Positions 21,451-55,607 of a stretch of DNA of 64,000 nucleotides are shown here, piece after piece. Numbering within the stretch: the first letter of the stretch is position 1; the number at the start of each line of letters is the position of its first letter. The position numbers and the translations under genes are program-made. The DNA comes from a bacterium. GTDB taxonomy: Bacteria > Bdellovibrionota > UBA2428. The notes beneath the pieces were generated by a model. The model did no database searches and had not been told where the DNA came from. It saw only the letters and a program-made list of their open reading frames with translations. The DNA is taken from contig JAACVK010000021.1 in the NCBI GenBank assembly GCA_009991595.1, positions 100,048-164,047 on the forward strand. The letters run 5' to 3'.

Positions 21451-21645
21451 ATGGAAGAGACGCTTGTTAAATTTCAAGAAAGCGCTGCTCGAAATCCAAA
21501 CCTTTTTAGCAAATATCCTATTTTCTCAGATTTAGAGTTCCAAAGCCACGCCCTCACTGAGAGCATCCCTCTCGCCCAAGAGGCCGCCAAAACACTCAGC
21601 CAATTGCCTGCCGATTCCTGCGAAGGAATCTTAGGCCGCTTTTAG
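21451..21645 (+). CDS. Small hypothetical protein (64 aa)
   Basis: Sole ORF in an otherwise empty interval. Its TAG stop merges into the left arm of the 21645-21736 hairpin. Confidence 0.45.
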   Translation: MEETLVKFQESAARNPNLFSKYPIFSDLEFQSHALTESIPLAQEAAKTLSQLPADSCEGILGRF

Positions 21646-21736
21646 GCGCCTAGCGACTTTTTCCATACCCCCCGCTACCTTTTTCCAGGCAGTTGGAAGA
21701 AGGTAGCGGGGGGTATGGAAAAAGTCGCTAGGCGCC
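21645..21736. repeat. Long hairpin repeat, copy 1 (42-bp stem, 8-nt loop)
   Basis: GGCGCCTAGCGACTTTTTCCATACCCCCCGCTACCTTTTTCC / GGAAGAAGGTAGCGGGGGGTATGGAAAAAGTCGCTAGGCGCC. Complementary except for one G.U-compatible position. Confidence 0.95.
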
Positions 21737-25123: not shown

Positions 25124-25127
25124 CTAA

Positions 25128-25222
25128 GGCGCCTAGCGACTTTTTCCATACCCCCTGCTACCTTTTTCCGTAATACTTTTGGAAAAAGGTAGCAGGGGGT
25201 ATGGAAAAAGTCGCTAGGCACC
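25128..25222. repeat. Long hairpin repeat, copy 2 (42-nt arms, 11-nt loop)
   Basis: GGCGCCTAGCGACTTTTTCCATACCCCCTGCTACCTTTTTCC / GGAAAAAGGTAGCAGGGGGTATGGAAAAAGTCGCTAGGCACC. Confidence 0.95.
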
Positions 25223-39977: not shown

Positions 39978-39995
39978 AAATTCTTCAAAAAGCGT

Positions 39996-40012
39996 TTTCA
40001 AATAACTTTCAA
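39996..40012 (+). promoter_or_regulatory. Candidate LexA operator TTTCAA-N5-TTTCAA (lexA)
   Basis: TTTCAAATAACTTTCAA, part of a 23-mer identical to one upstream of imuA. Ends 23 nt before the lexA ATG. Confidence 0.75.
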
Positions 40013-40035
40013 ACATGATAGATTGAAAAGCACAT

Positions 40036-40644
40036 ATGGCCAACAAAGATCTTACCCCCAAACAAAAACTCGTTTTGGATTACATCAAACGCTACAGCAA
40101 AAAGCATGGGCACACGCCCACCCAAGAGGCCATAACAAAGGGACTTGGCTTTCGCTCCGTAGGAACCATAAACTACCACCTACAAGGGCTGAAAGAACAA
40201 GGCTACCTAGAAGAAACTGAAAAGAATGCAAAGTATGGCATTCAACTAAAGACTAAAGACAATCAACTTCCGCTATTGGGCAAAGTTGCTGCTGGTAACC
40301 CTATCGACTTTAGAATCAGCAATGAAAGCATAGAAGTGCCAAGCAGTTTCATAAAAGGCAATAAAGAGCATTTCGTTCTACAGGCCTCTGGAAACTCTAT
40401 GATCGACGCCCATATTCTAGATGGCGACCTCTTGATTATTCGAAAGCAAGAGTCAGCAGACAACGGTCAAATTGTTGTGGCTGAGATAAACAATGAGGCC
40501 ACGATTAAACGTTTTTTCAAAAAATCCAGCAGTGTCGAGCTACACCCAGAAAATGAGAACTACAAAATTATAAAAGTCTCTAACGATTCTGACGATTTTA
40601 GAATTGAAGGAATTCTGGTCGGAGTGCTCAGCCCAAGGTCCTAG
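40036..40644 (+). CDS. lexA: LexA repressor
   Basis: N-terminal wHTH 'LTPKQKLVLDYIKRYSKKHGHTPTQEAITKGLGF'. Cleavage site 'KVAAGNP'. Catalytic 'ASGNSMIDAHILDGDLLIIRK' and 'EATIKRF'. Confidence 0.93.
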   Translation: MANKDLTPKQKLVLDYIKRYSKKHGHTPTQEAITKGLGFRSVGTINYHLQGLKEQGYLEETEKNAKYGIQLKTKDNQLPLLGKVAAGNPIDFRISNESIEVPSSFIKGNKEHFVLQASGNSMIDAHILDGDLLIIRKQESADNGQIVVAEINNEATIKRFFKKSSSVELHPENENYKIIKVSNDSDDFRIEGILVGVLSPRS

Positions 40645-46484: not shown

Positions 46485-46572
46485 AAAAGTCGCCGCCTCA
46501 CCCTACCTTCAAGCACTTAACGCGCGTCTGAGAAGGCCTTTAAAAAGGACTAGAGCCCCTCTTTTCAAATAA
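46477..46572 (+). CDS. Possible micro-ORF (31 aa, basic) ending inside the imuA SOS box
   Basis: ACGGAG then MSKKVAASPYLQALNARLRRPLKRTRAPLFK*. Stop at 46570-46572. Confidence 0.3.
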   Translation: MSKKVAASPYLQALNARLRRPLKRTRAPLFK

Positions 46573-46579
46573 CTTTCAA
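46563..46579 (+). promoter_or_regulatory. Candidate LexA operator TTTCAA-N5-TTTCAA (imuA)
   Basis: TTTCAAATAACTTTCAA. The 23-mer at 46562-46584 is identical to 39995-40017. Confidence 0.75.
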
Positions 46580-46665
46580 ACATGTTACAAATAAGAAGGT
46601 AGGCCAAAGCACTTAGCCAAAGCCGAGAAAAGCGACCCACTCACAGTTTTAAAGAGAGGAAAGAA

Positions 46666-47190
46666 ATGGAAACCGCAGAGCTAAAAGCTCTTGTCGGAAA
46701 GGCGTCGGGCTATACCCGAAGAGAAACTTTGCGTTTTTCTTTGTGCCCAGAACCCCTTCCCAGAGGAGCCCTTATTGAAGTCACCGGCTTTGGAAAGAGC
46801 GAATTCGTTGCCGAATTTTTAGCTGAGCACAAACATCAAGCCATTTGGCTAGAAGAAAGCTTCAACCTAAACCCACTCGCTTTTTTACAACGCCAAATCT
46901 CTCTTAAGAATATTCACTTTGTTGAAGCCGAGCACAATTTGTTTTGGGCAAGTGCTCAAGTCATTAGCAGCGGTCTTTACGATTCGATTGTCATCAATCA
47001 ACCCAACTGGGATCTGAAACAATTTAGAAAAATTCAACTCATGGCAGAAAAGAATAATCAACTGATTTTTCTTCTAGCAAAGACCCCCTTAAACGCTTGG
47101 CCTATTAGCTTAAGCCTGCAGGTAAAACATCGATTCTTCAACAAGGACTTTCAAGTTCAAATTAGACGCAAGAGATCTTTTTATAGATGA
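46666..47190 (+). CDS. imuA: ImuA-like (SulA/RecA-like) mutasome accessory protein
   Basis: 'LPRGALIEVTGFGKSEFVAEFLAEH', degenerate RecA-like core. Overlaps imuB by 4 nt. Confidence 0.8.
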   Translation: METAELKALVGKASGYTRRETLRFSLCPEPLPRGALIEVTGFGKSEFVAEFLAEHKHQAIWLEESFNLNPLAFLQRQISLKNIHFVEAEHNLFWASAQVISSGLYDSIVINQPNWDLKQFRKIQLMAEKNNQLIFLLAKTPLNAWPISLSLQVKHRFFNKDFQVQIRRKRSFYR

Positions 47191-48455
47191 ACATTATTTG
47201 CTTATTTTTTACGAAAGGAACTCCTCTCGAGTTTTTTGAATGCTGCTATAGCTTTACCCCCCGCATCTACTTTAACTCGGAAGCCATTTTTTTAGACATA
47301 GAAGGTTGCCAAAAACTTTATTCTACAGAAACTCTCATAAAGAGACTCCGCATTTTTGAACGGCGCTTTGGAGTTAGCTTTCGAATAGGAATTGCATCAG
47401 ACACTCCAACCGCTCTTGCCTTTGCTCGCTTTGAAGAAACTCGCAAAGCAGACTTACCTATAGAGGCTTTACTTGATTACGCCTCTCCCCTTAATAAAGA
47501 ACACATAAGTGAGGCCCTCCCCATGCTTTCACTTTTACAAAGACTAGGCGTTGAAAACTTGAGCGCCTTCCTGGCCCTCCCTAGCCAATCTCTTAGCTCA
47601 AGGTTTCAACGTCTAGGTCTTCACCTTCATCAGAGAGTCCAGGGGCTCTCGGCTTTACCGTGGCCCTCCTTAAAAAAGCCACTTCGAATTAGGGAAGAAA
47701 TCGTTATTGATGAATCCCAAAACGCACAAAGCCTAGAGCCCCTTCTCTTCCTCCTCAAAAACCCCCTTCAAAGAGCTTGCTCTCGACTTCGAGGAAGAAT
47801 GGAAAGAACACAATGCTTGAACTTAAGAATTGAAACAGAAAAATATTCTACCGTTAAAAGACCCGTGCTTGATTTGAGCTTCTATTTTTCAACCCCACAA
47901 GGCTGCTCTTTTTTTATTCTCCAAATATTAAAAGAAAAATTGGCCCACCATCTTCAAAGAACTCCTCTAGAGGCCCCAATTATTCACCTGAGCATTGAAT
48001 GCACGGAAACCTCTCCAGCCCAAATTTCTCAGCAAAACCTATTTAACGAAAAAGAAGAAAAAAAAGAGAAAATTGAATCCCTCCTCGAGCGCCTTAAAGC
48101 TAAGCTGGGCTCTCAGAAAGTTTTTCAAGCCTCCCTTATCGCCTCCTACATTCCCGAGCGTTCTTGGACAAGAGTTCAGAGCCTTCCCTCCGACATTGAT
48201 ACACCACTACCAAAGCGACCTATTCGTCTTTTAAAGAACCCTATTCCCTTAGAGCGAGTTAACAACCTACTTATCTTTAAAGGCTCTAGTATGAAAATTG
48301 TAGACGAAGAGGGGCCAGAACGCCTACAAGGCTATTGGTGGCAAGAGCTCTTTCACCGAGACTACTACACAACCACAGTGCAAAGCGGTGAAACCCTTTG
48401 GATATATCAACAAGATGCTTCCGGTCCCTACTATCTTCATGGGCTATTTGACTGA
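47187..48455 (+). CDS. imuB: ImuB-like inactive Y-family polymerase
   Basis: 'IFLDIEGCQKLY', 'RFGVSFRIGIASDTPTALAFARF', 'LSLLQRLGVENLSAFLALPSQSLSSRFQRLGLHLHQRVQGL'. Lacks the N-terminal DxD catalytic motif. Confidence 0.85.
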   Translation: MNIICLFFTKGTPLEFFECCYSFTPRIYFNSEAIFLDIEGCQKLYSTETLIKRLRIFERRFGVSFRIGIASDTPTALAFARFEETRKADLPIEALLDYASPLNKEHISEALPMLSLLQRLGVENLSAFLALPSQSLSSRFQRLGLHLHQRVQGLSALPWPSLKKPLRIREEIVIDESQNAQSLEPLLFLLKNPLQRACSRLRGRMERTQCLNLRIETEKYSTVKRPVLDLSFYFSTPQGCSFFILQILKEKLAHHLQRTPLEAPIIHLSIECTETSPAQISQQNLFNEKEEKKEKIESLLERLKAKLGSQKVFQASLIASYIPERSWTRVQSLPSDIDTPLPKRPIRLLKNPIPLERVNNLLIFKGSSMKIVDEEGPERLQGYWWQELFHRDYYTTTVQSGETLWIYQQDASGPYYLHGLFD

Positions 48456-52537: not shown

Positions 52538-52554
52538 TTTCAATTAACTTTCAA
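52538..52554 (+). promoter_or_regulatory. Candidate LexA operator TTTCAA-N5-TTTCAA (dnaE2)
   Basis: TTTCAATTAACTTTCAA differs from the lexA/imuA boxes only at one spacer base. Confidence 0.72.
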
Positions 52555-52580
52555 TATTGCTAGTCTGGAAAAACAAAGCA

Positions 52581-55500
52581 ATGAAGCATATGTATTCAGA
52601 ATTAAAGGCAAAAAGCTACTATTCCTTTCTTCAAGCCGCTTCCAGCCCAGAAGAGCTTATGGATGTAGCCGCCGAGCGTGGACTCTCTGCCCTCGGCCTT
52701 TGCGATGTGAACGGAGTCTATGGAATCCCCAAAGCTTATTGGAGGCGCAAGCACCATCATTCAAAACTTAAGCTACTGGTGGGTGCTGAACTAAGTATTG
52801 AAAAACTTCCCCCCATAACTCTGATTGCTCAGAACAAAAGCGGTTACAGTCTTTTATGTAAAATCATCACACAAGCCTTCCAAGACAAAGAGAAAGGACA
52901 AGCTAGCCTAAGCCTTGAGCAACTAACATCGATCACGCAAGAGAAATCCAACGAAGACCTCTTTTGTCTGAGCCTAGCTCATCCACAACTAAAAGGACTA
53001 AAGACACTTTTTAAAGAAAAGCTTTTTCTTAGCTTAAGCCGCCATCTCAACGGTCACGACAAAGAGAATACAAGACTGACACTTCAGAGCTCTGAAGAGC
53101 ATTGTATTCCTATCGTCGCCACCAACGACGTGCTTTTTGCCAAGAGTGAAAAGAAACAACTTCATGATGTGCTCACGGCGATTCATCACAAAAAAGGACT
53201 CAATGATTTGGGCTTTAGACTCGGACCTAATGCGGAACGCTTCATTAAAAGTCCTTCACAAATGAGAGAACTCTTTCACGACCTACCCGAGGCCATAAAC
53301 AACACACTTCTCATTTCTGAAAGTTGCGATTTTTGTCCGAGTCAATTGCGTTATCAATATCCAGACGAGTGGTTACCCAAAGGTATTTCAGCTCAAGAGT
53401 TCTTAGAACAACTGACTTGGAAGGGAGCAAAACGTCGCTACAAGGAAAACATTCCATTAAAAGTGAAAACTCAACTCATACATGAATTACACTTAATCAA
53501 CGAGCTAAGTTTTGCGGATTACTTTCTCACAATTTACGACATCGTTGATTATGCTCAAAAAAAAGACATTCTGTGCCAAGGTCGAGGATCGGCAGCCAAC
53601 TCGGCTATTTGTTTTTGTCTTGGGATCACCGCAATTGACCCTGTCGCGATGAATCTTCTTTTTGAAAGATTTATTTCTGCCGAACGCGGAGAACCTCCCG
53701 ACATCGACGTGGATTTTGAACACGAAAGGCGAGAAGAAGTCATTCAACACATTTACGAAAAGTATGGGCGAAACAAAGCGGCCATGGTTTGCACCATGAT
53801 TACCTATAGAAAAAGGTCCGCCCTGCGTGATGTGGCCAAGGCTTTCCACATACCAATCGGCACACTTTCTGCTCGAAAAGTAGAAAAGCAAATGACAGAG
53901 CTCTGCAAAGAATCCCCCATCCCTGACTCTCAGTCCAAAGTCGCACAACTTTGTGAAGAAATTTCGGACTTACCTCGCCATCCAGGCGTTCATAGCGGAG
54001 GATTCATTCTCTCCTCTAAAGACTTAAGTGAGATTGTCCCCATCGAGCCTGCACGTATGCCAGGACGCACAGTGATTCAGTGGGATAAATACGATCTGGA
54101 CTATCTCGGGCTCTTAAAAGTCGACATTCTAAGCCTTGGCATGCTCAGCGCTCTAAAGAAGTCTCTAAAAATGACCGGAAAAGAACTTTACGAAATCCCT
54201 CATGATGACACAAAAACTTATGAAATGATTCAACAGGCAGACACGGTCGGCACCTTTCAAATTGAATCACGCGCACAAATGTCTATGCTCGGACGATTGA
54301 AACCTAAAAATTTCTACGATCTTGTTGTAGAGGTAGCCATTGTGCGACCTGGCCCCATAGTCGGGCAAATGGTTCACCCTTACTTAAAACGACGACAAGG
54401 TTTAGAGAAAGTTGAATACCACCACCCTCAGCTAAAGAAAATACTAGAAAAGACTCTAGGCGTTCCCCTTTTTCAAGAACAAGTCATGAAAATTGCCATA
54501 GAGGTCGCCGGTTTTACTGCAGGAGAAGCCAATGAACTTAGGCAGAGTATTGCGGCATGGAGATCCGAAGGTTCTATCAACAAAATGGCTCAGCGGCTTT
54601 TCTATGGTTTACGAAAGCAAGGAATCCCCGAGGAATTTTGCCATCGCATCTACAAACAAATCTATGGGTTTTCAAAATACGGATTCCCTGAAAGTCATGC
54701 CGCAAGCTTTGCCCTACTAGCCTATGCCTCTTGCTACTTAAAATGCCACCACCCGAGTGAATTCACCTGCTCTCTACTGAACTCACAACCGATGGGTTTT
54801 TACGCCACCCACACCCTTGTCGACGACGCAAAGAGACACGGCGTTAAAGTGCTAGCTGTTCATCCCAATTTTTCAAACTGGGATTCTCACATTACAGGAA
54901 GCGCAATTCAGCTAGGCTGGCGCATCGTAAAAGGGCTTGGCAAAAAAGACGGAGAGCTAATCGCACAGGCCAAACCTTATGCTGATTTAAAAGACTTTGT
55001 TACAAGAACTTCTCTTCGGAAAGACTTGCTATATCGCTTAGCTCTTGCCGGCTGCTTTGACTGCTGGAAGCTGGATCGACGCCACACACTATGGAGTCTT
55101 TTAAAAGATTTACCAGAGACTCAAGTTCCATTCTTTCAATTTGCAAACTCCAACAAAGGCAAACAGGTCGATCTGTTTCAGGACTTTGATGAGGTCGAGA
55201 AAACCGCGCTCGATTTTGAGGCCTATCGCCTCACTACTCGTGGGCACCCAATGGAATTCTTGAGAAAACGCTACAAAACCAAGGCTCTTAATTCACGACA
55301 AGCAAAGTTAAAGAAACATGGCACGTGGATTCGTGCGGCCGGCCTCAACCTGGTGTTGCAAAAACCTCCCACAGCTAAGGGTGTTGCCTTTAGCACACTA
55401 GAAGATGAGCATGGCTTTTTGGACCTAGTCATCCACCCCCAAGTGTATGAAGACTACAAAGAAGCCTATTATCATGAAGCTTTTTTAATCATTGAAGGTC

Positions 55501-55607
55501 GGCTTCAAAGAGATAGAAACACTTGTAATGTGCTTGTAAAAAAAATCATTCCTCTTTTAAAAGACAAAAAAGAACTTCCTCTAGAACCTAATCGCTTTTT
55601 CCATTAA
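52581..55607 (+). CDS. dnaE2: Error-prone DNA polymerase DnaE2 (ImuC)
   Basis: PHP start 'YSELKAKSYYSFLQAASSPEELMDVAAERGLSALGLCDVNGVYG', 'CQGRGSAANSAICFCLGITAIDP', 'PPDIDVDFEHERREEVIQHIYEKYG', 'YGFPESHAASFALLAYASCYLKCHHP'. The upstream TTG start at 52557 is less likely. Confidence 0.95.
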   Translation: MKHMYSELKAKSYYSFLQAASSPEELMDVAAERGLSALGLCDVNGVYGIPKAYWRRKHHHSKLKLLVGAELSIEKLPPITLIAQNKSGYSLLCKIITQAFQDKEKGQASLSLEQLTSITQEKSNEDLFCLSLAHPQLKGLKTLFKEKLFLSLSRHLNGHDKENTRLTLQSSEEHCIPIVATNDVLFAKSEKKQLHDVLTAIHHKKGLNDLGFRLGPNAERFIKSPSQMRELFHDLPEAINNTLLISESCDFCPSQLRYQYPDEWLPKGISAQEFLEQLTWKGAKRRYKENIPLKVKTQLIHELHLINELSFADYFLTIYDIVDYAQKKDILCQGRGSAANSAICFCLGITAIDPVAMNLLFERFISAERGEPPDIDVDFEHERREEVIQHIYEKYGRNKAAMVCTMITYRKRSALRDVAKAFHIPIGTLSARKVEKQMTELCKESPIPDSQSKVAQLCEEISDLPRHPGVHSGGFILSSKDLSEIVPIEPARMPGRTVIQWDKYDLDYLGLLKVDILSLGMLSALKKSLKMTGKELYEIPHDDTKTYEMIQQADTVGTFQIESRAQMSMLGRLKPKNFYDLVVEVAIVRPGPIVGQMVHPYLKRRQGLEKVEYHHPQLKKILEKTLGVPLFQEQVMKIAIEVAGFTAGEANELRQSIAAWRSEGSINKMAQRLFYGLRKQGIPEEFCHRIYKQIYGFSKYGFPESHAASFALLAYASCYLKCHHPSEFTCSLLNSQPMGFYATHTLVDDAKRHGVKVLAVHPNFSNWDSHITGSAIQLGWRIVKGLGKKDGELIAQAKPYADLKDFVTRTSLRKDLLYRLALAGCFDCWKLDRRHTLWSLLKDLPETQVPFFQFANSNKGKQVDLFQDFDEVEKTALDFEAYRLTTRGHPMEFLRKRYKTKALNSRQAKLKKHGTWIRAAGLNLVLQKPPTAKGVAFSTLEDEHGFLDLVIHPQVYEDYKEAYYHEAFLIIEGRLQRDRNTCNVLVKKIIPLLKDKKELPLEPNRFFH

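Follow-up and report, generated by a model that had tools for sequence, protein, structure and literature searches.

LexA is the textbook example of a repressor that is itself conserved while the DNA it recognises keeps changing. For Bdellovibrio bacteriovorus, a report by Campoy from 2005 is said to be the original source of the TTAC-N3-GTAA box, and its title reportedly states that canonical SOS genes are not repressed by LexA in this species. In total, 17 LexA motifs have been counted (PMC8565304). The boxes of Escherichia coli (CTGT-N8-ACAG) and Gram-positive bacteria (GAAC-N4-GTTC) are palindromes (PMC3323433), and the LexA box of B. bacteriovorus is given as TTAC-N3-GTAA (PMC3323433; PMC8565304). 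Direct-repeat recognition by LexA arose several times, and a direct repeat in Balneolaeota, TTACACATATTTTWTACATA, has been validated by EMSA (PMC7739468). The site described here shares its layout with the alphaproteobacterial direct repeat GTTC-N7-GTTC (PMC3323433; PMC8565304). In this Bdellovibrionota genome, we predict that LexA uses TTTCAA-N5-TTTCAA as its operator (probability roughly 0.93), based on the repeat itself, its restriction to SOS genes genome-wide, the architecture and residues of LexA, and homologous operators across the phylum, all of which are read from sequence.

Predicted operators in the window and the genome

The window, i.e., the whole 64,000-nt stretch of DNA that was analysed, encodes a LexA of 202 amino acids (40036–40644, forward strand) with a winged helix-turn-helix (wHTH) and an S24 autoprotease domain (Pfam LexA_DNA_bind and Peptidase_S24; NCBIfam TIGR00498 above cut-off). 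The predicted operator of lexA, TTTCAAATAACTTTCAA, is an exact match on the forward strand at 39996–40012, so that a site lies ahead of lexA itself, as autoregulation requires; its two equal TTTCAA half-sites (39996–40001 and 40007–40012) have the same orientation, which places it in the direct-repeat class of operators. An identical predicted operator (46563–46579, forward strand) precedes the imuA-imuB operon, which encodes a RecA-like mutasome protein of 174 amino acids (imuA, 46666–47190, forward strand; NCBIfam ImuA_translesion E = 2.8e-15, under the curated cut-off) and a Y-family-like mutasome protein of 422 amino acids (imuB, 47187–48455, forward strand; E = 2.6e-8 in a weak match to DNA polymerase IV). 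ImuB has 27–41% identity to homologues elsewhere in the phylum, several of which adjoin lexA. The preliminary description had reported a 23-mer, TTTTCAAATAACTTTCAAACATG, upstream of lexA (39995–40017) and, identically, of imuA (46562–46584), and had read it as a direct repeat of TTTCAA with an 11-bp period; both copies and the repeat were located as claimed, whereas the predicted operator TTTCAATTAACTTTCAA (52538–52554, forward strand) upstream of dnaE2, which is the third exact copy within the window, had been missed. The dnaE2 gene (52593–55607, forward strand) encodes an error-prone DNA polymerase (NCBIfam 1150.7 bits, cut-off 939; also Pfam), for which an alternative TTG start at 52557 is possible. 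All three copies are co-oriented with their genes, at 23 (lexA), 86 (imuA), and 38 nt (dnaE2) ahead of the start codon. By inspection, the TTAC-N3-GTAA dyad is absent from all three window sites, as had been stated for lexA and imuA, and the half-site is TTTC(AA) in place of the alphaproteobacterial GTTC.

The draft assembly (2.96 Mb; fragmented, 90.6% complete, 4.7% contamination) was scanned for the motif TTTCAAWTAACTTTCAA alongside a reversed-pattern control. Only three matches without mismatch were found, all at SOS genes (lexA, imuA-imuB, and dnaE2), followed by one match with one mismatch, one with two (within an ORF), and 53 with three. Across the whole assembly, matches with up to three mismatches were not in excess over the control (58 vs. 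75 in total), and 22 of the 25 three-mismatch sites retrieved as loci lie inside ORFs; at this threshold, no target beyond lexA, imuA, dnaE2, and recA rises above the genomic background. The single one-mismatch match, TTACAAATAACTTTCAA, is located on the opposite strand, 163 nt upstream of the recA ATG, and recA is probably a LexA target. Elsewhere in the phylum, 6 of 378 genomes contain the exact motif, in a single copy each (~0.016 per genome), as a rare product of chance. The dnaE2 and recA sites are independent of the motif definition; as a rough estimate, the chance that an exact copy falls no more than 300 bp from one of ten core SOS genes would be of the order of 1e-5, and for a one-mismatch copy of the order of 1e-3, yet the first happened at dnaE2 and the second at recA. 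Because these probabilities are low and both sites lie outside the motif definition, a dispersed repeat, or a lack of enrichment, is ruled out for dnaE2 and recA. The genome-wide enrichment check proposed in the preliminary description thus adds exactly these two genes, the 23-mer does not turn out to be dispersed in the genome, and the reading of the 23-mer as a LexA operator gains support from the four best sites in the genome being those at lexA, imuA, dnaE2, and recA. One candidate, L006 (TTTCAATACTTTTTCAA), was set aside, with no obvious SOS gene close by.

The window contains other repeats, namely two nearly identical long hairpins (21644–21734 and 25127–25219; inverted repeat beginning GGCGCCTAGCGACTTTTTCCATACCCCC), possibly REP- or MITE-like, and same-strand short repeats of at least 23 bases (685–712 and 1024–1051; 557 and 1235), possibly within a repetitive coding region.

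Phased half-sites in relatives

Relatives were compared by architecture, with the exact TTTCAA letters found in one genome only. The comparison covered 63 distinct lexA upstream regions of 120 bp each, mostly from Bdellovibrionota and a few from other or uncertain phyla, which were obtained mostly by a search of the phylum and in some cases from named records. An exact 6-bp direct repeat at a lag of 11 is present in 41 of the 63 regions, compared with six at lag 12 and zero to three at each of the remaining lags between 8 and 20; dinucleotide shuffles gave ~1.4 per lag on average, with a maximum of seven. The letters of the half-site differ by clade, the classes at lexA being TTACGC (e.g., TTGACTTACGCATAACTTACGC), TACGGA, GTACG, TTCGG, and TTACA, as well as TTTCAA in this genome only; the spacer ATAAC is common to this genome and part of the TTACGC class. 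To judge from these upstream regions, the relatives appear to keep the head-to-tail layout and its 11-bp period while the letters differ.

The pattern TTACGC-N5-TTACGC was matched 36 times across 15 of the 16 genomes of the TTACGC type, vs. one control match; phylum-wide, it occurs in 118 of 379 genomes. Nearly all retrieved loci adjoin lexA, recA (L170, L172, L175, L188, L193, and L196), genes for S24/UmuD-like proteins (L173, L184, L191, L195, and L197), or an operon containing a Y-family polymerase (L176). Three loci are unexplained or fall outside the classic SOS set (L168, L171, and L185), the last being close to a gene for a radical-SAM protein, a protein class also found in the Balneolaeota LexA regulon (PMC7739468). 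Half-sites recur within a genome at recA, umuD/umuDC or imuA: TACGG is shared by lexA and recA in G032, G088, and G018, TTACGC by lexA and recA in G038, G010, G081, G077, G062, and G054, and TTTCAA by all four genes (lexA, imuA, dnaE2, and recA) in the genome studied here. At recA of the three TACGG genomes, the repeat (TACGG-N6-TACGG) is on the opposite strand, as at recA here, and the opposite orientation is also seen at umuDC of G070; this indifference to orientation speaks against a plain promoter element. Upstream of one recA (L193, 1501–1528), three half-sites follow one another in 11-bp steps, and rows of this kind would be expected if the unit recognised is a phased half-site. Rows of four TTACGC half-sites with an 11-bp period were also recorded, as positions only, at G098:C4:74109–74147, G101:C254:154–192, and G103:C39:7846–7884.

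Outside the phylum, direct repeats at lag 11 were seen upstream of lexA in 14 of 66 cases, vs. one to four at other lags; examples come from Omnitrophica (L056 and L066), Uhrbacteria and a further bacterium (L096 and L100), and an Acidobacteria MAG (L059), and the repeats include TTTCGG-N5-TTTCGG and ACTTACGCATAACTTACGC. A separate observation concerns G065, which encodes two LexA-like proteins (L015 and L151); their direct repeats differ (TACGAATAACTTACGA and GACGGACTAAAGACGGACT, respectively), and the second lies beside imuB.

The Bdellovibrio palindrome and the evolution of LexA specificity

In 12 Bdellovibrio-like genomes of one family (f6), 10 of them of a single genus (g40), the sequence TTAC-N7-TTAC-N3-GTAA was found, and it lies at lexA in every f6 locus checked, as well as in a named Bdellovibrionales record (L116). 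Nine of the 10 g40 genomes have one further site, TTAC-N7-TTAC-N3-GTAA-N7-GTAA, which in L198, the sole case scanned with Pfam, is upstream of a gene for a RecA-like, ImuA-like protein. No matching site was found at recA of G047. Extra TTAC/GTAA half-sites in 11-bp steps stand beside the palindrome at L198 (1501–1533), L204 (1501–1533), and L199 (1501–1522), on one side of it at lexA and on both sides at the imuA-like locus. In the context TTAC-N7-TTAC-N3-GTAA, the palindrome coincides with the junction of phased repeats, and the TTAC-N3-GTAA box may, on this sequence evidence, be such a junction. The preliminary description had contrasted the TTTCAA site with the B. bacteriovorus box; the two do differ, but the gap is smaller than thought, with TTAC-N3-GTAA overlapping a TTAC-N7-TTAC direct repeat.

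The LexA of this genome is canonical, with an intact Ala86-Gly87 cleavage site, Ser121, and Lys158 in addition to its wHTH and S24 domains, and it aligns along its length with E. coli LexA structures (e.g., 3JSO and 7B5G). Its recognition helix is FRSVGTINYHL. None of the 62 other aligned LexA proteins has a Tyr at the position of Tyr47, which corresponds to E. coli Glu45, and in the same alignment only L022 and L153 share Asn46. The LexA tree groups the operator classes, with 12 changes compared with 35 in shuffles, and a branch with 99% SH-aLRT support separates a palindrome-type clade (ATACCATAC..GTATGGTAT) from the direct-repeat types together with this LexA. The palindrome-type clade includes the LexA proteins of G001, G002, and G003, members of the same GTDB family as this genome, and the palindrome is present at recA of G002 and lexA of G003. 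In this genome, the palindrome CCATAC-N4-GTATGG has one two-mismatch place only, not above the control, and a single LexA was found. RecA here is nearest to those of G003 and G001 (72%), which agrees with the family assignment for the recA contig; no ImuB turned up in G001–G003. For this fragmented draft assembly, the simplest account would be that the genome acquired or retained a LexA of the direct-repeat type, perhaps along with the mutasome genes, and lost the palindrome type, and that recA gained a matching site.

The candidate palindromic LexA box ATACCATAC-N4-GTATGGTAT was observed in families f1, f3, f9, and f16, upstream of lexA in L155, L154, L157, L159, L162, L166, and L150, and upstream of recA in L252. 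At several lexA genes it overlaps the chosen start codon, and the true start may lie further downstream.

A joint reading, which we hold at about even odds, would be that LexA in most Bdellovibrionota reads 11-bp-phased half-sites that face the same way and form no dyad, with half-sites added singly (three or four in a row) or head-on, the B. bacteriovorus TTAC-N3-GTAA being only the junction (at imuA, in TTAC-N7-TTAC-N3-GTAA-N7-GTAA); the palindrome-type LexA of the family would in this genome have given way to one of the direct-repeat type whose recognition helix has changed, and the vertically inherited recA would have gained its TTTCAA site.

Promoter context, alternatives, and known LexA boxes

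Possible extended -10 elements were read from the sequence, on the forward strand, at lexA (TG-A-TAGATT, 40016–40024), imuA (TG-T-TACAAA, 46583–46591), and dnaE2 (TG-C-TAGTCT, 52558–52566). By eye, this TG-N-TANNNN element is at a constant spacing at the three genes, its hexamer beginning 7 nt after the last base of the repeat, with a gap of 6 nt; a scan for consensus sigma-70 promoters gave no hit at lexA or recA on the strand of the gene. The first TTTCAA would then occupy the -35 position, with a 17-bp spacer, and the second would lie between -35 and -10. We infer binding, a head-to-tail domain arrangement, repression, and damage induction. Two LexA winged-helix domains would bind head to tail on the same face of the DNA, 11 bp (one helical turn) apart, a non-symmetric arrangement that a flexible linker could permit; such a linker in LexA has been described (PMC8565304). 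Bound LexA would cover the region used by RNA polymerase, including the -35 and the stretch up to the TG-N-TA-type -10, and would thereby repress its own gene, imuA-imuB, dnaE2, and probably recA. Upon DNA damage, activated RecA would trigger self-cleavage of LexA at Ala86-Gly87 (Ser121/Lys158), and the mutasome would be induced. Repression by blocking polymerase and release through RecA-driven self-cleavage follow established LexA biology.

The constant spacing to the possible -10 at the three window sites is also what a pure promoter element would produce, and in actinobacteria damage genes have LexA-independent RecA-NDp/PafBC promoters. The 17-mer could accordingly be a promoter element that serves an alternative sigma factor or a damage-gene activator, a proposal that draws on the shared orientation and distance to TG-N-TA at lexA, imuA, and dnaE2, but that we consider highly improbable: the repeat is on the opposite strand at recA, likewise in the TACGG-type relatives and at umuDC of G070, a period-11 repeat precedes lexA itself in most genomes, and the half-site letters change between clades in step with the LexA tree. 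The lexA site also invites a reading as part of a palindrome or larger inverted structure, with the direct repeat incidental, given that its second half-site, CTTTCAA, is followed after 10 nt by the inverted partner TTGAAAG, and that repeats overlap TTAC-N3-GTAA in the Bdellovibrio-like genomes. However, the partner is missing at imuA, dnaE2, and recA, so the inverted repeat CTTTCAA-N10-TTGAAAG was dropped, whereas the direct repeat is present at all four genes; moreover, the period-11 repeats of relatives, tandem arrays included, occur without dyads, which leaves a palindromic site very unlikely.

Chance, a dispersed repeat, or a promoter block copied between SOS genes without regulatory meaning is barely conceivable and is already contradicted by the genome scan. 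Recent copying could explain the 23 identical bases at lexA and imuA, yet the flanks differ on both sides, the dnaE2 and recA variants have another spacer letter or lie on the other strand, and there is no further copy with at most one mismatch in 2.96 Mb, against a background of six exact copies in 378 genomes. A LexA operator is our preferred reading of the repeat.

The site had been put forward as a new type of operator. Its half-site, TTTCAA, appears not to have been described earlier; only the letters appear new, and the 11-bp direct-repeat layout is known. No report of these operators came up in searches that paired LexA with Bdellovibrionota, Bacteriovorax or TTTCAA, which is weak evidence, subscription literature being mostly outside their coverage. 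Within a single phylum, these sites supply a range of half-sites that differ while the 11-bp scaffold stays the same, together with the recognition-helix sequences of the LexA proteins paired with them, and a possible link from direct-repeat to palindromic boxes, by which a change of LexA specificity and symmetry becomes directly testable; predicted SOS regulons are also provided for many uncultured relatives of predatory bacteria.

Compared with the E. coli and Gram-positive boxes, the predicted operator has the LexA family and core targets in common, but those boxes are palindromes and are absent at the sites here. The Balneolaeota box is likewise a direct repeat at lexA, recA, and translesion polymerases, with its ACATA halves 11 bp apart, although it belongs to another phylum and has another half-site. 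The B. bacteriovorus box comes from the same phylum and targets lexA and an imuA/dnaE-type cassette, and Bdellovibrio-like genomes have TTAC-N7-TTAC; in contrast, the half-site here is TTTCAA, there is no TTAC/GTAA dyad, and recA carries a site. The suggested likeness to the alphaproteobacterial layout is borne out: both boxes are direct repeats with an 11-bp period at SOS genes, and TTTC-N7-TTTC here is one letter off per half-site. The half-site here nonetheless extends to TTTCAA, and two alpha-like LexA proteins have the helix LKSKSGI(H/Y)(R/Q)LI, unlike FRSVGTINYHL in this genome.
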